64,000 bases of DNA from a virus. This document shows, piece by piece, positions 1 to 22,109 of the stretch. The notes beneath the pieces were generated by a model. The model searched no databases, was not told the origin of the DNA, and worked only from the letters and a program-made list of their open reading frames with translations. The translations under genes were made by a program, and so were the position numbers. Positions within the stretch are counted from its first letter, which is position 1; every line of letters begins with the position of its first letter. The stretch covers positions 1-64,000 of IMG/VR virus record IMGVR_UViG_3300027985_001685. One strand, written 5' to 3'.

Positions 1-2085
1 GTCATTAAGAACTGTAATCTCCCATAATTGACCATCTAAACTTCTAAGCTTAAACCCTTTTCCTGCAGACGATCTATCTATATCAAGGTTTGCACTACCT
101 AGGCCGTTATCAGCAAGTAAGGCGGCGTTTTTATCGCTATTATCAAAACTTCCACTTTCAATCTGTTCAGCCTTTAAAAGATACTCAACTCCTGGTGCAT
201 AGAATGTGCCACTAGGAAAAATAGCTTTGTTGGCCTCTAGATCAAAAGATCTCCAAGGATACACCTGTCCTGTAAGTATATCATAAAACTTCAGGATGTC
301 TTGGTCTACTAGAAAATTAGTAATTTCAAATTCTGTAACATCGTCATCACCAGAAAATGAAAAATATTGAATTTGTTTAGATCCAGTAATGCTTGATACT
401 GAGTCTTGAGCATAAAGAATTCCTAGACCTAGAAGCTTAGTGTCCGCCGTTGCGGCTGTAACTTTCACAATAAGTGATTGCTTATAGCCAGTTAAACCAT
501 AAGTTAAGGCTGTATCACTTGTCGCTGACCAGACTGATCCGTCATATACACTTGAGTTTGAAGTTCCTGTTCCTGCAGTCAATTCTAATGCAGTTGTTGC
601 TGCCACATAAGAGTTTCTATATGCAGAGTCAGGAATAATTTGTAGATGATAGTTTGTATTTCTTTTTAAATGAGTTTTTGAAAGTGAGACAATTACGACG
701 TCTTCTCCACTAGTTAAACTAGAAATATCGATTAAGTCAGAGCGACAAAGTTCTGCTCCAGGAAGTCCACTATTATCTTCATTTACAGTTACAATAAAAC
801 TGCCAAGTGGTGACCCTACTTTATTATAAGAGATTGCATATTTAATTAGATCAGATGTCTCTGTTAAGTTAACAACAAGCGCCGCCCTCTGAGCATCGCT
901 ATCATTTAACTCTAAATTAACACCTTCATTTAAAGCACTACCTAGGCTTACACTATTAGTTGTAAATTCAGGAAGAGTTAGTGTTCCAATATATGTGTTA
1001 GAACCACTAATAGATTCCATAGTAACTTCAGTAAAATTCTTACCATTGTCAGCAGAAACTTCATATGTAGCAACTAGATCTGGAGTTTGCCAGAAAGCCC
1101 ATAACTCTATTGACTTGTTATTCAAATCTGAGTCTAAATAATAATCACAATATAGGTTGGTAGTTTGAAGTGTATCAGCAGAAGCAAATTCATAAAAGTA
1201 TTCACTATTTGCTTTATTTAAGTTCGCAGTAGAGTTAGTCTCATCTGTCAGCCCATCCTCTACAAGAGTAAAATCTAGAGGTGTAACAGCACTAAAGACT
1301 GTATCTTCACTTCTGTCTGTAAGCGTATCTACAATTACAGAACCACCACCTCCACTTCCACTAATTGCTATCCAGTATTCTGATTCAAGGTCAGCAAAAA
1401 AGTCAGCAGATGAAGTATGTCCATTTCCGACAGTATCACATCTATATATAACATTATTTTCTTCAACCCAAACGATTGAGTCAGTAAAGTACTTAGTATC
1501 TGCCTTCCATTTCTCAATTCCACCTTTAGCCTCACCAAGGCTAGAGGCTGTTCCGATCTTCCAAGAACTACCGTCGACAAACCAGTGTAGGTATTGCGTA
1601 GTATCTGCATTATCTAAGCGAACCGCAATAGGGATATAGAGAAGGTTAGAATTGGTGATTGCAGGAATAACTGTTTGATCAATAAAAAGATTAGAGTTAG
1701 CCGAAGTAAGAGAAAAACTAGGCGTGTCTCCAGTACCTAAACCAGCTCTATCAATAACAGCATAGAGAATACTACCAGAAGAGCTAAAGCCAAGAGTCTC
1801 AGTTGAAGGAATGTTATAAGAATGAACATTGCCTGTACTGTTTTGATAAACTTTTAAGTAAATATTTTGACCAGTTTCTATTTGTAATTCAGTTCCAGTA
1901 AAGGTAACTGGGCCATCACTGTGAAGAATAATAGAGTAACGTGATAAGATATCACTTATTGCGTTATTCGCATTACCTAAGAGAGTCCCTAAGTCCTCTC
2001 TTTCTGCACCTCCAAGCACAGCTAGTTCAGCATCATTTCTGACCATTGAACTAGATGGATAACCTGATGTACTTCCTAATTGCAT
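1..2085 (-). CDS. Large tail-fibre/adhesion protein, 3' end cut by the window edge
   Basis: An open frame runs without a stop from an ATG at 2083-2085 to the left edge, giving at least 695 residues. A strong AAGGGAG ribosome site lies 6-7 bases upstream of the ATG, and the start overlaps the end of the upstream gene by 10 bases. The protein is Ser/Thr/Asn-rich and beta-rich, typical of phage fibres. Around residues 190-237 there is a module with the spacing of carbohydrate-binding (chitin-binding type 3-like) domains: a Trp, then Tyr-Phe, Ile-Val-Trp, Val-Ile-Tyr-Arg-Cys, and a closing Tyr-Trp, followed by a Gly/Ser linker. The rest looks like beta-sandwich repeats. As a last gene after many fibre genes it is probably a distal adhesin. 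The fibre role is inferred from composition and context; the binding module is recognised by pattern only. Confidence 0.8.
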   Translation of the reverse strand, partial: MQLGSTSGYPSSSMVRNDAELAVLGGAEREDLGTLLGNANNAISDILSRYSIILHSDGPVTFTGTELQIETGQNIYLKVYQNSTGNVHSYNIPSTETLGFSSSGSILYAVIDRAGLGTGDTPSFSLTSANSNLFIDQTVIPAITNSNLLYIPIAVRLDNADTTQYLHWFVDGSSWKIGTASSLGEAKGGIEKWKADTKYFTDSIVWVEENNVIYRCDTVGNGHTSSADFFADLESEYWIAISGSGGGGSVIVDTLTDRSEDTVFSAVTPLDFTLVEDGLTDETNSTANLNKANSEYFYEFASADTLQTTNLYCDYYLDSDLNNKSIELWAFWQTPDLVATYEVSADNGKNFTEVTMESISGSNTYIGTLTLPEFTTNSVSLGSALNEGVNLELNDSDAQRAALVVNLTETSDLIKYAISYNKVGSPLGSFIVTVNEDNSGLPGAELCRSDLIDISSLTSGEDVVIVSLSKTHLKRNTNYHLQIIPDSAYRNSYVAATTALELTAGTGTSNSSVYDGSVWSATSDTALTYGLTGYKQSLIVKVTAATADTKLLGLGILYAQDSVSSITGSKQIQYFSFSGDDDVTEFEITNFLVDQDILKFYDILTGQVYPWRSFDLEANKAIFPSGTFYAPGVEYLLKAEQIESGSFDNSDKNAALLADNGLGSANLDIDRSSAGKGFKLRSLDGQLWEITVLND

Positions 2086-14500: not shown

Positions 14501-15190
14501 TTAATTCTCACTTGAAATAAAAGTTAATCCTACATCTACAGAGAGATGCATGGCTCTAGATAGATAAGGTGGAGTTCTTACAAAGAGTGAAAACTCTGCT
14601 TCCTCTAACCTTCCAATAACACCGCCTTTATATATCAAAGGAATGGCGGTTGTCTTTCCAGTGCCAATACCAGATCTTATTGGTGTTTCTTTATAAATCT
14701 TTATCCTATAGTTTTCACCTTCAACACTTTCAGTAAAACCTTCACTTAATGTGTAGTATTGATTTTCTACGTCATATGATGATATTAAACGACTCTCTCC
14801 AGCCATTTCTCCAGACATAATCTCGATATAAGAATTAGTAAAAATATCTATCTTTTCTTCTCTTGTATAATCAAAGATTCTTAATGAATCATGGTAGTCA
14901 ATGGTTCCTGTTACCTCATAGCTTTGCACTACAAAAAGGCCATACACTCCATCGTATCTCTCTCCAAAAGAGATTATACTTTCATAGTCTTTTAAGGCTG
15001 TAGAGCTTCCTTCATAGCTTTTATATTTTGGCATTATATAAATACCACACCCTTGAATAGGAAGCTTAGATGTATGTTTTACTGAAAAAGTATGCAGGTC
15101 AGAGACTTCTGACTCCTTCATGCTTCCAAGGTTAACCCTACTGTCTGAGGTTATAATATCATTTTTGTATGACCATACTATACTTGTCAT
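14501..15190 (-). CDS. Beta-rich baseplate-associated protein, unknown family
   Basis: This 229-residue product starts in a 4-base ATGA overlap with the FnIII protein gene, so the two are translationally coupled. It is beta-rich, with an SGEMAGESRLISSYD segment followed by YYTLSEGF and YRIKIY. That strand order (Ser-Gly, Ala-Gly, an isoleucine strand, then an aromatic strand) also appears in the upstream FnIII protein (ILTGVNAGDKIKISNI) and is common in phage peripheral baseplate proteins. No catalytic motif or membrane segment is visible. Function within the baseplate is not known. Confidence 0.65.
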   Translation of the reverse strand: MTSIVWSYKNDIITSDSRVNLGSMKESEVSDLHTFSVKHTSKLPIQGCGIYIMPKYKSYEGSSTALKDYESIISFGERYDGVYGLFVVQSYEVTGTIDYHDSLRIFDYTREEKIDIFTNSYIEIMSGEMAGESRLISSYDVENQYYTLSEGFTESVEGENYRIKIYKETPIRSGIGTGKTTAIPLIYKGGVIGRLEEAEFSLFVRTPPYLSRAMHLSVDVGLTFISSEN

Positions 15191-17829
15191 AACCCATAAC
15201 TCCCTTCGCCATATTTGCTAATACCATAGGTTGCTTGTGATTGAACAACAGCATAGTTATAAGGAATTGCCCCAGCTACTCTAGAAGGAAGACTTTCAAT
15301 TCCTGAGTTGATTGCTGTAACCATAAAATAATATGTTTTATTGTTCTCTAGTCCTGTCACTATAACACTATCAAAAACCCCCGCTATTGTCTTGTATAGT
15401 TTAAGGTTATCTGCCGAAACCCCATAGTATATAGAGTAGGATGTTGCACCCACATCTTGCCAAAGCACTTCAACTTCACCATTTCCAGGATTAAGTTTAG
15501 TTATTTGTGTACTATTATCATAGTATTTAATTATAGGATAAGATCCACTCGCAGCATGTTTCTCAACAATTTCTCTAACTTGAGACCTAGTTAAGTTTCC
15601 ACCAACTTCTTGTAAAATACTTCTGGGTATATCAACAATAAATGCACATGCCCCAGGAAAAGCTTGTCCGTCCCAATTTCCAATATCCCAATACCATTGA
15701 ACTTGATCTTGAAGATTTAATGCCTCATTGGTTTTTGATTCATAAATTCCTCCCCCTCTAACTCTTATATCTTTCTTTGAGATATTAGATGGAAAAAGAG
15801 TTTTTACCGGATAAACATCGCCAAGGAGGAGGTAGTAGTGTGGCTCAGCCGTAAAAGTGTCCACAAAGCCACTGTAATTAAAGGTTGTATCCAGTCTTTC
15901 ATTATGATACTCATATCCATTTAGTTTAGAGTTTATTCTAAAGTTTACTCCCTCAACTATAGGGTATTCAAAATTATGCTCAGGAATGATGGAGTAGTAT
16001 GGTGAAGGAATTGTTTTTAATGATGTAGCTATCTGAGGATTATCTTCGACATATGTTGCAACAAGACCGTAGGTTTCTGAATAAATATTAAAGGCGTTAC
16101 AAATCTGACTTGCTGTAGAGACACCATTCTCTATATAGATGGTGTATACATTGTTATTGTACAAGACATATTCACTCCCAGCACTTGTGCCATGAGTGTA
16201 CTTAATTTCTTTCCCTGTATTTAAACCAATACTATCATCTCGATCTGTAAAAGTAACATCACCAACAGTAAGCGTGGATGGCGCAAGCGAAATGTTAGAG
16301 ATTTTTATTTTGTCTCCAGCATTAACGCCTGTCAAGATTTCTAACTCCCTTCCAACACAACTTTGTGGGATTACTGTATTTTCATCCCTTATCTCAGAAA
16401 TAGATCCGCTAGTCGCAGTTGACTCTAAGGTTACGAGAGTTGCATCTTCATTTGAGAAGGTAATATATCCTTTAGAGTCATACACTATGCTGTAGACTGT
16501 TTTATTTAAGCTCTCACCCTCTCTCTCTGGGACTATATATACTAAAACATTTTTGTCTAAGATGTCAGGGTTTATTGATGGGTTCATTTGAAGATCTATA
16601 AGCTGATAGTATCTTTCTTCATATCTAAATGTTACATATGGAGTAAGACCGCTATCAACATCTTCATTTAGTTGAATAAGTCCATCTTCATTACAAAAGC
16701 TATGAATCTTATCTTTCTCATAAAAAATATCAGTGATAACTCCTTGAGGAGTAATATAAGCTGAAGCATCTGGATCATCAGTAAAAGCAGAAATTACTTT
16801 ACCTCTGTTATTTTTGAGTATGATGTAAACATAGAATCCATTTGTACTAAGTGCAGCCAAAGGTGAAGGGGTCACTTTTATTAATCGATTACTAATCCTA
16901 TAAGCCTTCTTTTCTACAATGTATCGGTATGGAATAGATGGATTAAAAGACTGGCTATAATACTCTGGCACCGAATATAGGCACATTTCTGAACCACAAA
17001 TTTTGTAGAAACTTCCTGGGTAAATCCTCATATGCCAGTTGTCATCCGCTGAAGGATCGGCCGGTTTATCTATGTGGATTCGACTATCTCCAGAAGTCTT
17101 GATTGAAAATCTATGGTATCCCTCTATGCTTGTTGGGCTATATGCTCTTGAATCAAAATAAACTGTAACTGTAGACTCTCCAGAAAAAGATGTTTCTACA
17201 GAGTAGGTTCTTGTTTTTGACCCACTTTCAAACATTGACCTGGTATAAAAAGGGGATGAATTCAAAAGTACAGTTATCGTTTTTCCTGTCTCTTGTTCAG
17301 TATATCTAACATAATAAATTTCATACTCAGAGCTAATTATATTTGTTTTGCAAACAAGGTTTGTATATAAGCTATATGCTTCTTCGCCCAACACCTCTGT
17401 CTCATCAACATAAAGAAATAAATCTGAACTTATTCGGTTAAAATTACTGTCTAATATTTCTACACTAGATACTGGGACTGGCAAGCTATGTCTATAATAA
17501 AAGGGTATGACCAGTTCATCAGACGTTGTTTTAAAAATATCTGTGATTAAAAATGAAGACGTTTCAAAGACGGTTGATTGACTGTAGAATGTTTCTTCTT
17601 TATATGTTTTCGGGCTATTTTCACTCATAGAAAGAGTGTTATCAACTATCATCAGGTTATCTTGCGTGTTTATAGGTGGAGCATCCAGATAGGAGACACC
17701 TACACTTGCACCACTGAATGACTCTGAATACCTTATGTGGTTGATTTCATTACGAACACTAATTCTTGTATCAACCTCTGTCTTAACAGAAATATCTTTA
17801 AAATAAAAATCTATACCTATTTTTGACAT
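15187..17829 (-). CDS. Baseplate/tail protein with C-terminal FnIII domain and Tyr-Gly-rich tail
   Basis: The protein has 880 residues and is beta-rich throughout. Residues about 775-860 form a fibronectin type III domain, with VEVLWQ, YSIYYGVS, and a LENNKTYYFMVTAINSGIES stretch covering the diagnostic NxTYYFxVTA core. After it comes a short tail ending TYGISKYGEGSYGL, a Tyr-Gly repeat seen at the ends of some phage tail proteins. The start lies inside the end of the thioredoxin-like gene (13-base overlap), directly linking this gene to the radical-SAM cassette. That position makes it a candidate client of the cassette. FnIII domains in tails often act as sticky surface modules. Confidence 0.75.
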   Translation of the reverse strand: MSKIGIDFYFKDISVKTEVDTRISVRNEINHIRYSESFSGASVGVSYLDAPPINTQDNLMIVDNTLSMSENSPKTYKEETFYSQSTVFETSSFLITDIFKTTSDELVIPFYYRHSLPVPVSSVEILDSNFNRISSDLFLYVDETEVLGEEAYSLYTNLVCKTNIISSEYEIYYVRYTEQETGKTITVLLNSSPFYTRSMFESGSKTRTYSVETSFSGESTVTVYFDSRAYSPTSIEGYHRFSIKTSGDSRIHIDKPADPSADDNWHMRIYPGSFYKICGSEMCLYSVPEYYSQSFNPSIPYRYIVEKKAYRISNRLIKVTPSPLAALSTNGFYVYIILKNNRGKVISAFTDDPDASAYITPQGVITDIFYEKDKIHSFCNEDGLIQLNEDVDSGLTPYVTFRYEERYYQLIDLQMNPSINPDILDKNVLVYIVPEREGESLNKTVYSIVYDSKGYITFSNEDATLVTLESTATSGSISEIRDENTVIPQSCVGRELEILTGVNAGDKIKISNISLAPSTLTVGDVTFTDRDDSIGLNTGKEIKYTHGTSAGSEYVLYNNNVYTIYIENGVSTASQICNAFNIYSETYGLVATYVEDNPQIATSLKTIPSPYYSIIPEHNFEYPIVEGVNFRINSKLNGYEYHNERLDTTFNYSGFVDTFTAEPHYYLLLGDVYPVKTLFPSNISKKDIRVRGGGIYESKTNEALNLQDQVQWYWDIGNWDGQAFPGACAFIVDIPRSILQEVGGNLTRSQVREIVEKHAASGSYPIIKYYDNSTQITKLNPGNGEVEVLWQDVGATSYSIYYGVSADNLKLYKTIAGVFDSVIVTGLENNKTYYFMVTAINSGIESLPSRVAGAIPYNYAVVQSQATYGISKYGEGSYGL

Positions 17830-18101
17830 ATCTTATCTAACTCCGAAACTATCTGACTAAACCCTTCAAGGCATACTTCTTTTTCAGTATCACAATAGGT
17901 TGGAAGATGATTTATCGGCAACCCATCTTCATCTGTTCCAACTATTTCATTTTCCGCATTTTTTATTATAAACTGATTCATGCTTCTATCAAATTCTACA
18001 TGAAGGAAATGTATTTGACTAGCATCAAAACCATTATCAGAGATAGTCTTCAGTAATTTTTTACAAGATTTACAGTCTTTTGACAGGAAAAGTAGTTTCA
18101 T
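17817..18101 (-). CDS. Thioredoxin/glutaredoxin-like protein
   Basis: This 94-residue protein opens with a beta strand (MKLLFLSK) leading into a CKSC redox motif at residues 10-13, the normal position in small thioredoxin-fold proteins. A second strand (HFLHVEF) follows, and an HLPT segment at residues 65-68 supplies the expected cis-proline (P67). Two further Cys (70 and 77) lie just after it. The gene starts inside the end of the radical-SAM gene (32-base overlap) and ends inside the start of the FnIII gene. It could donate electrons to, or keep reduced, the iron-sulphur enzyme or its substrate; that partnership is inferred from the overlap. An independent disulphide role in virion assembly is an alternative. 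Confidence 0.75.
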   Translation of the reverse strand: MKLLFLSKDCKSCKKLLKTISDNGFDASQIHFLHVEFDRSMNQFIIKNAENEIVGTDEDGLPINHLPTYCDTEKEVCLEGFSQIVSELDKICQK

Positions 18102-19407
18102 TATGACCTACCATAAATTCTTCTCTAAAACATTCTGCCGTAGCTTTTGCTGCAGGCGATAATCGAGTAGAATATATTGAGTGAAATCCAATATCCCGAA
18201 GGTGGAGTAAAATCGCATCATAGAACGGTTTGTTGTCCAAATATCTAACAAAGTGATGGTCATCTCCTGCTAGAAGATCAATACTATTTAGGGCGTCAAA
18301 AAAATCTACTCCAAATCTTTCCTCTAGCCCTTTAGCATATATAATAGCTACAGCGTAGGCTTTTGCTGGCTGCGTTATTGCCTTGTTTAAATAGAAATAC
18401 TCAACTACATCTTTCTCAAAAAGTTCAGCTTTAGGAAAAACCTCTTCTTTTTTTTCATAATACCTATGTGTCCGATAACTAATTTCTCTTAGCCTTCTTA
18501 TTCTCTTAGGAAGAAACTGATTGTTGATTCTATCAATGAAATACCTTCCACCAAGACATTCGGTATTTGATCTGTGTTCAGCAGTACATGCATCTTTTTT
18601 CTTACACCCCTTACATATCTTTTGATCCACTTCTGCTAAATACTCTTTTTCATAATCGAGTAACTCTTTTAGAGAGTCTTTCCATACAAACAGTTCATAC
18701 CCATGAACATATACTATAGTTCCAAACTTACCATATGGAGAGATAAAGACATGGTCTTCTCTTGTTGATTTAGATTCTGTAGAATCAGGCTCTATAAGAT
18801 TGCTATTAACTACATTAAAAGGGAGATCTGAAGTTCTTGCCTTAGTTATCAATTTTCTATTGTAACCCCAGTACTCTTCCTGTGAAGGACAAATCTTTTG
18901 GTTGAACATTGTTCTAGTCATAGGCTTAACTTCAAGGTAGCTAATGCCAGTGAACTTTCTGGCTTGTTCTAACAATATCTCTGGGTCTGGCGTTTCTCTT
19001 GAATAGACTATAGTTACACCAATTGATCTTCCCGTTAAAGAAAGGCATCTCAACCTCGCATTTAATTCTTCAAAGTTATCTTTTTCAGGAATCCAACTAA
19101 AAGAAATATCGACATCTCTGCTAAATAGTAATGGAAAAGTTCGTTCTAAATTTGTAACTACAGAGATATTCTCGTCTGTAAAAAAGTTAGCTGTCTGATA
19201 AATCTCAAAAAGCTTTAAATGATCTAGCTCTGACAGTTCTCCGCCATACAAGTCTATGCCAGTTATGTGTCTATGGGCAGAGATTTCTCCTAGGCAATTA
19301 GCTAATTCATGCGGCTTAATTAAGGTTTGATCTGCTACCTTATTACCAAGGTAGCAGAAATTACAGTGTTTAGAACATTTATACGATGGAATTATACTTA
19401 CTTTCAT
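18070..19407 (-). CDS. Radical SAM enzyme with SPASM-like cysteine cluster
   Basis: The protein has 445 residues. Near the N-terminus lies the radical-SAM signature CxxxCxxC (C11, C15, C18, in CSKHCNFC), which binds the catalytic 4Fe-4S cluster. A GGE motif follows at 55-57 (LYGGELSE), which contacts S-adenosylmethionine in this family. At 265-284 there is a second cluster C-x2-C-x5-C-x9-C, as in SPASM/twitch auxiliary iron-sulphur domains of peptide-modifying enzymes. About 155 C-terminal residues are helical and unrecognised. The gene sits 2 bases after the tailspike stop and overlaps the thioredoxin-like gene. A protein- or peptide-modifying maturase for a tail component is inferred; no precursor peptide is visible. 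The ribosome site (AGGA) is very close to the ATG, suggesting coupled translation. Confidence 0.85.
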   Translation of the reverse strand: MKVSIIPSYKCSKHCNFCYLGNKVADQTLIKPHELANCLGEISAHRHITGIDLYGGELSELDHLKLFEIYQTANFFTDENISVVTNLERTFPLLFSRDVDISFSWIPEKDNFEELNARLRCLSLTGRSIGVTIVYSRETPDPEILLEQARKFTGISYLEVKPMTRTMFNQKICPSQEEYWGYNRKLITKARTSDLPFNVVNSNLIEPDSTESKSTREDHVFISPYGKFGTIVYVHGYELFVWKDSLKELLDYEKEYLAEVDQKICKGCKKKDACTAEHRSNTECLGGRYFIDRINNQFLPKRIRRLREISYRTHRYYEKKEEVFPKAELFEKDVVEYFYLNKAITQPAKAYAVAIIYAKGLEERFGVDFFDALNSIDLLAGDDHHFVRYLDNKPFYDAILLHLRDIGFHSIYSTRLSPAAKATAECFREEFMVGHNETTFPVKRL

Positions 19408-19409
19408 TC

Positions 19410-22109
19410 CTATGAGTATAAACTCATAGTCGCAAAAGATAAAGGAAAAATATTAAAAGCATCGAAATAAACATATCCACTATTGTTGCTTACTTCTATG
19501 TATGGTCTAATATATGTTGTTCCTGTAGTAAATCTCAAAATGTTTGATGAAGAGGAGACACCATATCTCATGCCTTGTTTTACAGTCCATGCGGTAGAGC
19601 AAGAGCTTGCATTTGAAATAAATCCACCATAGTTTGTCAGTCCAGTTTTACTAGAGTTGTAATTTAACGCTCCACAACTAAAGTAAGGAGATGTAGAAGA
19701 TGCTTTTACTGAAACATATCCTCCCACGCCCATTGCAGCAAAAACAGGAATATACTCTCTTAGAACCCAAATACCATTACCAGTAACTCTCCAATGGCCA
19801 TAACCTATTTGTGAATCTGTACTTTCAATGTACTCTAGGGTTCCAGACCCAGATATTCTAGACCAGCGATAAAACTCAGATTTTTTGTTTGTATGATCTA
19901 AAATATAGAAGTCATTACTTTCTCCTAATTTTCTAGTCTTTTCAACAAAAATATTTTCACCCGTAGATGCACTTATAATGTTATTTACTACAGTATTATA
20001 CTGAATCTCTCCACTAATAACAACTTCATCAGAGGTATTTAAAAATGAGAAACCATTAGTTAGGTTTTCCAAGATCAGTTCACCTATCAGGATGTTATTG
20101 CCATCAATCTCAGCTCCAGTAGTGAAGCCATCTATAATAAAAGACTTTAATGAATTAAGTCCGTTTAAGACAAGGCATGAAGCAGGAGGTGTTGCTGATG
20201 CTACTAGAATTGTAGATAAACCTTCTCCGACAAGAGAGACTGTTGATGGAACATTTATAGTGTTGCTTATCTCATAAGACCCAGACTTAATCAGGACGGT
20301 TCCACCCTTAGCGGAGATATGATCTATCGCTTGCTGGATTACTGCATCTGTTTGTCCATTATACGTTCCAAAAGAACTAATACCATCTCCAACTGTAATT
20401 GAAATAGATCCACCATCTGACCACCCAGATCCATTATAGGTTACTAGCTTCTTAAGTTGTGGATCATATCTTGTATATCCTTCCTCTGCTGTAAGTCCAG
20501 AAGCATCTCTAGGCAGAAACACGGTTCCTTTCTTAACATATGTCGCACCAGAGAAAAGAGCATTGTCGTCTTCTGTTTTACCAAAAATTGTTCCACCAGA
20601 AACCCTTAGATCACCGTTAACAACTGTGTTTCTAGTTAAACCTGTATCGGTATTTTTTGCTCCAGAGATTTCCAGTGAAGCATTAGTAAAGTTTTGAGTT
20701 AATGAACCTCTACCATATGAAGCAGTAAAATCTGACACCCTTTTGTATCTGGCCTCTGCTCCATCCTCATGTTTCCCAAAGATAACGGCGTAACTATCAT
20801 CTTCTATATTATAACAAGGAACTTCATCTGATGGACCAGTAAATTTAGACCCAACAACAAAATCACCTCTAAAGATATTGCTACCACTACCTGTATCTGT
20901 TGAATTATAACCACTCCTATGAAGATACATAGAGTGGTCATTTCCACTTATTTTAGAAACGCCGTAGTATGTTTGTCTATCCTCAATATCTCCTTCTCCA
21001 CGTAGATTCATAAGTTCTCCGTGGTTTATCATTCTAACAATACCATCGCCCATATGGGTATGGGTATAGAAATCTCTCATAAGAGAGGAAAGAAGGGATG
21101 CATAAGATGTACCAGAGACGACTACAAGATAGTTTCCATCGACATCTAGGGTTACGTCTGAAGCGAATTGAACAATAAATTCAAATCTTCTTTGTGGTTG
21201 AGAGGTTGCCGCCCTAAAAAGCACCGCCCCATCAATTGATTTTTTTGTTGACCAATCATAGATTTTAATTAAATTTAATGGAATTTCTTTTCCAACACCT
21301 GTTTCTGAGTCAGACTCTTCAAGGTCATATCCATCCTCATCAAAAAAGAAATCTGGAAGAGAGTATCTTTCTTCTCCAGAACCCAGTGATGACTGGGTGT
21401 TGCTTAGTGAAATATCTCCAATTTCACCATTCCTATCATAAGCTTTAGTAATGTATGGTAAGGATATTGTATAGATATTTTGAGTTGAATCATTTACAGA
21501 TACTGTAACAAATGGTCCACCAGTCACAGCCTGTGCGATAGATGGAATTGTATTAAATGTTGAAGATGCTCCAGATGATCCTTGACCAGAATAAACTGAC
21601 CTAAAAATAACTGTTCCACCTGTTGAAGGAGAATGTGTAATCAACTTTCTACTTGCTAGAAGATTCCCATTAATTGGTTGACCGATTTCAATTGTCCAAT
21701 CGCCCTCTTCTAGAATTTCTTCTTTTGTTTCTTTATAGCTTCCAGGAGTTACTGATCCATCTGTACTGGCAACAATTAGCCCATCATACCCATCTGTAAT
21801 GATAGGAATAAGATCTAACTCATGTTCGACCTTGTTCACCCCTAGTGTTTGAATATAGTTTTGACGAATAACATTCCCAAGGATAAATGGAGAGAGCAAA
21901 TCTCTGTTCCCTAGGTCCCTAGAAAAGTTGGAAAACCATCCATTTGTATGTCCAGCAGAATGACCAAAGGCATCACCAATTGTTGCCGACAAATAATCAA
22001 ATGCTTCTTCAGACTGAACATTCATTCCAGTAAGTTTCTCGTCAGTAGGTTTTTCGCCTACGCTAAAAGACACTTCTGATGGAATAAGATTCTTGAGTTT
22101 ATCTTCCAT
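19410..22109 (-). CDS. Tailspike/fibre with right-handed beta-helix domain
   Basis: The product has 899 residues and an AAAGGA site 8 bases before the ATG. Residues about 575-690 match the pectate-lyase/tailspike beta-helix start: TDAVIQQAIDHISAKGGTVL, then SGSYEISNTINVPS and VSLVGEG, a pattern typical of phage depolymerase spikes and fibres. The N-terminal region has a baseplate-binding character and a HTHMGDG/HGELMN stretch with HxH-type histidines, followed by a SMYLHRSGY-RGDFVVG segment. The last ~150 residues form a beta-sandwich with several Trp. Polysaccharide binding or cleavage is likely for the fold, but no catalytic residues can be assigned by eye. It is the gene directly upstream of the radical-SAM enzyme. 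Confidence 0.8.
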   Translation of the reverse strand: MEDKLKNLIPSEVSFSVGEKPTDEKLTGMNVQSEEAFDYLSATIGDAFGHSAGHTNGWFSNFSRDLGNRDLLSPFILGNVIRQNYIQTLGVNKVEHELDLIPIITDGYDGLIVASTDGSVTPGSYKETKEEILEEGDWTIEIGQPINGNLLASRKLITHSPSTGGTVIFRSVYSGQGSSGASSTFNTIPSIAQAVTGGPFVTVSVNDSTQNIYTISLPYITKAYDRNGEIGDISLSNTQSSLGSGEERYSLPDFFFDEDGYDLEESDSETGVGKEIPLNLIKIYDWSTKKSIDGAVLFRAATSQPQRRFEFIVQFASDVTLDVDGNYLVVVSGTSYASLLSSLMRDFYTHTHMGDGIVRMINHGELMNLRGEGDIEDRQTYYGVSKISGNDHSMYLHRSGYNSTDTGSGSNIFRGDFVVGSKFTGPSDEVPCYNIEDDSYAVIFGKHEDGAEARYKRVSDFTASYGRGSLTQNFTNASLEISGAKNTDTGLTRNTVVNGDLRVSGGTIFGKTEDDNALFSGATYVKKGTVFLPRDASGLTAEEGYTRYDPQLKKLVTYNGSGWSDGGSISITVGDGISSFGTYNGQTDAVIQQAIDHISAKGGTVLIKSGSYEISNTINVPSTVSLVGEGLSTILVASATPPASCLVLNGLNSLKSFIIDGFTTGAEIDGNNILIGELILENLTNGFSFLNTSDEVVISGEIQYNTVVNNIISASTGENIFVEKTRKLGESNDFYILDHTNKKSEFYRWSRISGSGTLEYIESTDSQIGYGHWRVTGNGIWVLREYIPVFAAMGVGGYVSVKASSTSPYFSCGALNYNSSKTGLTNYGGFISNASSCSTAWTVKQGMRYGVSSSSNILRFTTGTTYIRPYIEVSNNSGYVYFDAFNIFPLSFATMSLYS

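Follow-up and report, generated by a model that had tools for sequence, protein, structure and literature searches.

A tail-operon radical-SAM enzyme as a member of a conserved phage cassette that probably matures a virion-associated C-terminal peptide

We analysed a 64,000-base stretch of viral DNA, hereafter called the window (positions 1 to 64,000 of IMG/VR record IMGVR_UViG_3300027985_001685), in which a 445-residue protein with the motifs of a radical S-adenosylmethionine (radical-SAM) enzyme is encoded within a tail operon. From the sequence and from computed comparisons, the protein is a radical-SAM enzyme of a viral family, here called D, and is fused to a partner domain, F; family D is linked in phages with three paralogous radical-SAM families (A, B and C), with F and with a precursor-like protein that ends in an invariant peptide, and the loci lie close to tail-fibre genes. 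Based on these data, we consider it likely that D-F is one enzyme of a conserved phage cassette, similar to those for ribosomally synthesised and post-translationally modified peptides (RiPPs), by which a virion-associated C-terminal peptide is matured.

Results

Identity of the enzyme

The motif positions that the first-pass annotation had assigned in the 445-residue open reading frame (ORF), namely C11, C15 and C18, GGE at 55-57 and C265, C268, C274 and C284, are exact. The motifs are not chance occurrences, because CxxxCxxC, YGGE, H219, C265, C268, C274, E277, H278 and C284 are all invariant in 33 homologues. The Pfam profile Radical_SAM (PF04055) scores the protein at 16.5 bits, under its cut-off of 29.5, which is a detection threshold and not a biochemical trait, and a sequence search of the PDB with D matched nothing meaningful. 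This divergence in sequence is bridged by a match to phrog_1802 (radical SAM, E 1e-7), by the homologues and by the structure, and D is a true radical-SAM enzyme. With the AlphaFold model of D (mean predicted local distance difference test, pLDDT, 79), all 30 PDB matches at E <= 0.001 in the structure comparison are radical-SAM enzymes, with SuiB in its peptide-bound form, SkfB, TigE, anSME and EpeE at the top (E down to 3e-7) and with viperin also present. The modelled fold, a partial TIM barrel with peptide maturases leading the matches, supports the earlier assignment of D to the peptide-modifying type of radical-SAM enzyme.

The SPASM layout that had also been proposed is retained in part. 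The CxxxCxxC, GGE and CX2CX5C elements are present; the second cluster of D reads CX2CX5CX3H...C, with a His at the place of the fourth SPASM Cys, and the seven-Cys motif CX9-15GX4C...CX2CX5CX3C...C does not describe D, the first Cys pair being absent. With only a partial motif, D is therefore SPASM-like and not a full SPASM member.

The cassette

A tblastn search of 50,697 phage records with D found homologues in just a handful of large phages (Atu_ph07, Phosso, DT01, SURPRISE13, FLC6 and FLC8), where D is part of clusters of several radical-SAM genes beside virion genes, accompanied in most of these phages by 2-oxoglutarate (2OG)-Fe(II) oxygenases and a cupin. A plasmid search with D gave no match, and a scan of viral contigs for close relatives with D alone found none, the family alignment being needed to find them; with that alignment, the scan of IMG/VR gave 191 related stretches, of which 80 were kept. 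The cassette was then counted over 85 loci outside the source genome, with D present by selection. All four families A-D occur together in 79 of the 85 loci (A in 80, B in 81, C in 83 and D in 85). F is present in 80 and lies directly 3' of D in 63, 2OG-Fe(II) oxygenases are present in 77 and a cupin in 68, while the families c5, c8 and E occur in 51, 37 and 29, respectively, a B12-binding radical-SAM gene in 21, and a tail-fibre-like gene within the flank in 56.

The paralogous radical-SAM families A-D, together with E, form separate clades with support of 95-99, and the window protein falls inside the D clade with an SH-aLRT support of 99, both in a quick tree with long branches, because of which the placement is stated with caution. 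Lying inside this clade and carrying F as a fusion, the window protein is a member of cassette family D. F itself (about 136 residues, phrog_20737) is mostly a separate gene, standing alone in 80 other loci, and forms one protein with D in the window and in locus L028; the adjacency and the fusion suggest a joint function of the two. No protease, exporter or transporter was recognised in the recurrent part of the cassette, with c5, c8 and F set apart, and host enzymes could serve in their place; nor is any nucleotide-modifying partner recognisable in the cassette. None of the NCBIfam families of June 2026 covers the precursor, F or c5. It is also noted that a tryptophan-halogenase-like gene (PF04820, E 2.3e-60) occurs in eight cassette loci, including L029 (10885-12168), L048, L066 and L072.

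The precursor-like protein

Another family of the cassette, c4, which we call the precursor and which is typically encoded between A and c5, combines a variable body with an invariant extreme C-terminus, which in viruses other than the source phage is CHxSCHxSCHxSRGRR followed by the stop. In an alignment of 26 precursors, every sequence has the three CH pairs and RGRR, the mean column identity of the whole protein being 45 %. The precursor of the source phage ends in YYYCHTNCYSKCHSNCHSRSRR and matches the c4 profile over its full length at E 3.2e-24, and it still matches at 4.5e-15 when the C-terminal peptide is removed from both profile and query. As is characteristic of RiPPs, a precursor with a conserved core is encoded together with its presumed modifying enzymes.

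Because starting from the radical-SAM genes would bias the outcome, a DNA pattern scan was run with the peptide only. In viral contigs it gave at least 120 stretches, 119 of which were analysed; a true precursor ORF is present in 112 of the 119 viral stretches listed, and a radical-SAM gene of these families also in 106. Among the 123 distinct precursors in the listed matches, the positions left free by the pattern are kept (S in 112, 97 and 112, G in 111), the upstream neighbour is A in 66, the downstream neighbour is c5 in 70 and a tail-fibre gene is a direct neighbour in 23, with 0 matches for the reversed-pattern control. When D-bearing records were tested whole, the peptide was found in 8 of 8, again with zero for the reversed pattern. 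Most loci without the peptide are on short contigs, and it is in fact present in 5 of 23 such records. Across 84,980 bacterial and archaeal genomes, the pattern matches only 19 stretches; 15 of them have a precursor ORF, 14 of the 15 also have the radical-SAM genes, and 8 of the 19 are titled Bdellovibrio- or Bacteriovorax-like. A literature search for the peptide itself returned chance letter strings only.

In the model of one precursor (L036, pLDDT 83), the body is folded and the C-terminal peptide has low confidence, being probably flexible; a folded body with a flexible tip would be a layout fit for display. A comparison of the precursor fold with viral models found relatives only.

Concerning the distribution of the precursor, the contigs of predatory Bdellovibrionota with precursor and radical-SAM genes are L229, L233, L238, L240, L241, L242 and L245, and L243, from an unclassified bacterium, is likewise so equipped. 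The precursor loci of L229 and L245 adjoin prepilin-like genes and an uncharacterised protein of 184-197 residues. One virus group has two tandem short precursors (124-137 residues) and several E-type radical-SAM genes, for example at L042 (2326-3143), L096 (19675-20447) and L107 (19728-20485). Tail proteins preceding the cassettes of jumbo phages have a conserved end W-R-x-[VI]-W-P-x-x-W (L062, 2192-3835; L104, 736-2310; L005, 4076-5197; L006, 4120-5241), possibly another modified end; as a substrate of the cassette, the C-terminal WRxVWPPxWQ of such proteins was rejected, since it stands beside few jumbo-phage cassettes, in too few loci.

Link to the virion

By gene counting, the precursor of Atu_ph07 is coding sequence (CDS) 170, and the count fits PMC6102473 for gp125 (head completion), gp132 (sheath), gp198 (portal), gp204 (prohead core) and gp215 (capsid). 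CDS 170-215 is one of three virion-protein clusters defined by mass spectrometry in that phage (PMC6102473), and the precursor is the first gene of this cluster, from which we infer that it was itself detected in virions. In many loci, moreover, tail-fibre genes directly adjoin the cupin-A end of the cassette.

The source genome

The 188,132-base record has a direct terminal repeat of 144 bases (window 1-144 and the end of L027), and the genome is therefore circular or complete, with about 187,988 bases. It holds A, B, C, the precursor, c5 (E 1.1e-23 against the c5 family) and one D only; on the circle D lies about 25.9 kb from a second B-type gene and about 30.5 kb from the precursor (Table 1). 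Its family A protein scores 31.9 bits against the SPASM model TIGR04085 (cut-off 27) and resembles the maturases of dynobactin, darobactin and other RiPPs. Family C resembles HxsC weakly (36.7 bits vs a cut-off of 267.9). Tail-fibre-like genes (phrog_4492, E 1.2e-20 and 7.6e-12) are found at 183-186 kb, 3-6 kb past the cluster.

Two more radical-SAM proteins outside A-D are encoded in this genome, at 108539-109321 (+) and 124841-125989 (+). In addition, nine of its ORFs of differing length (record 127722-130709 and 154883-155804 (+), in L024, L025 and L026) have the common N-terminus MK[KIV]R.GFVSNSSS[SA]SF, which resembles a common leader or targeting peptide and is found zero times in the other fetched loci.

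Neighbours of D in the window

The window is a myovirus-like structural region, with profile matches to tail sheath, baseplate wedge, major head protein and tail fibre. Around D, the gap of 2 bases to the spike-like gene, the 32-base overlap with the thioredoxin-like gene and the 13-base overlap of the latter with the FnIII-like gene were all reproduced. The thioredoxin-like protein has the CKSC motif and the cis-Pro candidate, and its fold profiles are below the cut-offs (Spx/ArsC-like, E 0.0027; Thioredoxin_2, E 0.081). It has zero homologues in the 50,697 phage records, no comparable CxxC ORF was found in other cassettes, and, judged from these searches, such a partner of D is peculiar to the source phage.

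The first-pass annotation had proposed that D modifies the adjacent spike or FnIII protein. That substrate is unsupported, because neither gene is conserved beside D in other loci. The wider idea of a modifier tied to the virion holds up better: a radical-derived modification is probable, and the D homologues, rather than being scattered away from tail genes, are kept near them. The YG-rich and C-terminal motifs of the window tail proteins were rejected as substrates, being without a notable conserved motif.

Table 1. Positions of the features in the window and of the cassette genes in the complete record
Feature	Position	Strand	Remarks
880-residue protein with FnIII-like domain, downstream neighbour of D	15187..17829	(-)	Pfam fn3 E 0.0023, sub-cut-off
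Thioredoxin-like 94-residue protein, C10-K-S-C13 and L-P-T-Y cis-Pro candidate	17817..18101	(-)	sequence; 32-base overlap with D
Radical-SAM enzyme of family D, with partner domain F as a C-terminal fusion	18070..19407	(-)	445 residues
Domain F, residues about 326-433 of D, phrog_20737	18109..18432	(-)	F profile E 4.6e-24; phrog_20737 E 1e-17
Auxiliary cluster motif C265-x2-C268-x5-C274-x3-H278-x5-C284, SPASM-like	18556..18615	(-)	C265, C268, C274, E277, H278, C284 invariant
GGE motif (G55, G56, E57), part of invariant YGGE54-57	19237..19245	(-)	sequence; invariant
CX3CX2C motif (C11, C15, C18), SAM-binding [4Fe-4S] cluster	19354..19377	(-)	sequence; invariant in 33 homologues
899-residue spike-like protein with pectate-lyase-like stretch, upstream neighbour of D	19410..22109	(-)	PF12708 E 2.3e-4, sub-cut-off
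Family A, own genome	record 173791-174861		SPASM domain above cut-off
Precursor, own genome	record 174874-175554	(+)	ends CHTNCYSKCHSNCHSRSRR
Family B, own genome	record 177039-178112
Family C, own genome	record 178113-179165
Second B-type gene, own genome	record 179149-180174	(-)

Discussion

In the pathway that we favour, A, B, C and D with F would modify the CHxS repeats at the precursor C-terminus CHxSCHxSCHxSRGRR, with the 2OG-Fe(II) oxygenases, the cupin, the B12-type radical-SAM enzyme or the tryptophan halogenase adding steps in some phages. Thioether or C-C crosslinks are the usual products of such enzymes. The folded body of the precursor would act as a built-in recognition domain for the enzymes and would tether the modified peptide to the virion, most likely close to the tail fibres, and the thioredoxin-like protein of the source phage would probably maintain the Cys-rich peptide in the reduced state or serve the redox of the iron-sulphur clusters. 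A role of the modified tip in host contact or metal binding is our guess, made because of its Cys/His content and of the iron-binding His motifs published for tail fibres (PMC11705849).

Several points weigh against this pathway. No modification was seen; the mass-spectrometric support for the precursor comes from a cluster boundary; no PDB structure matches the precursor body; and no 2OG-Fe(II) oxygenase is detectable in the genome of the source phage. In that phage, moreover, D is located about 26-31 kb from the rest of the cassette and on a long branch, and it may therefore have changed its substrate. Such a change is the core of one alternative, in which D is now a dedicated modifier of the spike or the FnIII protein beside it and the thioredoxin-like protein is the reductant, while A, B and C keep the precursor. 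The tight coupling of D within the tail operon, apart from A-C, is in line with it, as are the long branch and the unique neighbour. By contrast, D keeps every active-site and auxiliary-cluster residue that is conserved in its family, a genome with A, B, C, the precursor and c5 but a single D is what would be expected if D stays in that pathway, and the two neighbours are not conserved beside D in other loci, so that we regard this alternative as improbable.

A slightly better but still low chance is given to a cassette that makes a diffusible modified peptide, redox cofactor or metallophore, which is cut from the precursor and acts on the infected host, on competitors or on co-infecting phages without being part of the virion. 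Its content does resemble that of RiPP clusters, and a metabolic role was argued for the radical-SAM genes of Campylobacter phages (PMC2853527); yet no protease or exporter family is recognised among the recurrent genes, and the precursor is large and folded, adjoins tail-fibre genes and opens the Atu_ph07 virion-protein cluster. Much further from the data is a role of the enzymes on DNA or tRNA bases or on nucleotides, by hypermodification or in a viperin-like way, rather than on a peptide. Radical-SAM enzymes are indeed used by phages to modify bases, and the structural matches of D include viperin; nevertheless the best structural and profile matches are peptide maturases, the cassette is without recognisable nucleotide-modifying partners and it is an invariant peptide that travels with the radical-SAM genes, which makes this role very improbable.

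If the maturation of a virion-associated peptide is right, the phage radical-SAM clusters, hitherto unexplained or ascribed to metabolism, gain a specific and testable substrate whose 16-residue C-terminus is invariant; this precursor end occurs in at least five cultured phages and well over 100 viral contigs. Such a pathway would mean that a dedicated multi-enzyme chemistry matures a virion protein, and would offer new peptide chemistry as well as a possible, so far unrecognised determinant of host contact. The occurrence in predatory bacteria hints at a common solution for attacking Gram-negative cells. A more far-reaching version, which we put forward as a speculation with the odds against it, is that one peptide-maturation system is common to phages and predatory Bdellovibrionota and gives a surface-displayed attachment protein a radical-modified, possibly metal-loaded Cys/His tip for entering Gram-negative cells; as one example, the tip may engage metal-uptake receptors.

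Several radical-SAM genes have been noted in phages before, in CP220/CPt10, whose authors proposed a metabolic role (PMC2853527), in FLC6 (PMC8066314) and in S13 (PMC11898562). In 332-Vera, eight radical-SAM genes in the structural gene cluster were called 'highly unusual' (PMC12390700), and in pelagimyophages radical-SAM cassettes lie in the host-recognition cluster, together with the tail fibres (PMC7029224); as in the present cassette, the genes of both are multiple and near structural or tail-fibre genes. A search of these five papers, within the open-licence literature other than preprints, found no mention of a precursor or of peptide maturation.

Among characterised systems, the His-Xaa-Ser (Hxs) system with HxsB and HxsC (Haft and Basu, cited in PMC9062424) is similar in that the viral repeats contain H-x-S and family C is weakly HxsC-like, below the cut-off; it differs in that each viral His is preceded by Cys (CHxS), and in the RGRR end, the extra enzymes and the phage and tail context. 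The proteins scanned gave no match to HxsB or HxsD and do not qualify as Hxs equivalogs. The RiPP maturases SuiB, SkfB, TigE, EpeE and anSME (DynA/DarE for family A) are like D in fold, CX3CX2C, GGE and auxiliary Fe-S motif, and like the viral cassette in the adjacency of the precursor and, for family A of the source genome, in the SPASM domain. Unlike them, D holds a partial SPASM motif with a His, at least four paralogous enzymes accompany each precursor, no protease or exporter is recognised in the cassette, and the core peptide forms the C-terminal end of a folded protein that is apparently linked to the virion. The system is most likely a variant of RiPP-type maturation with an unusual, probably virion-borne substrate.

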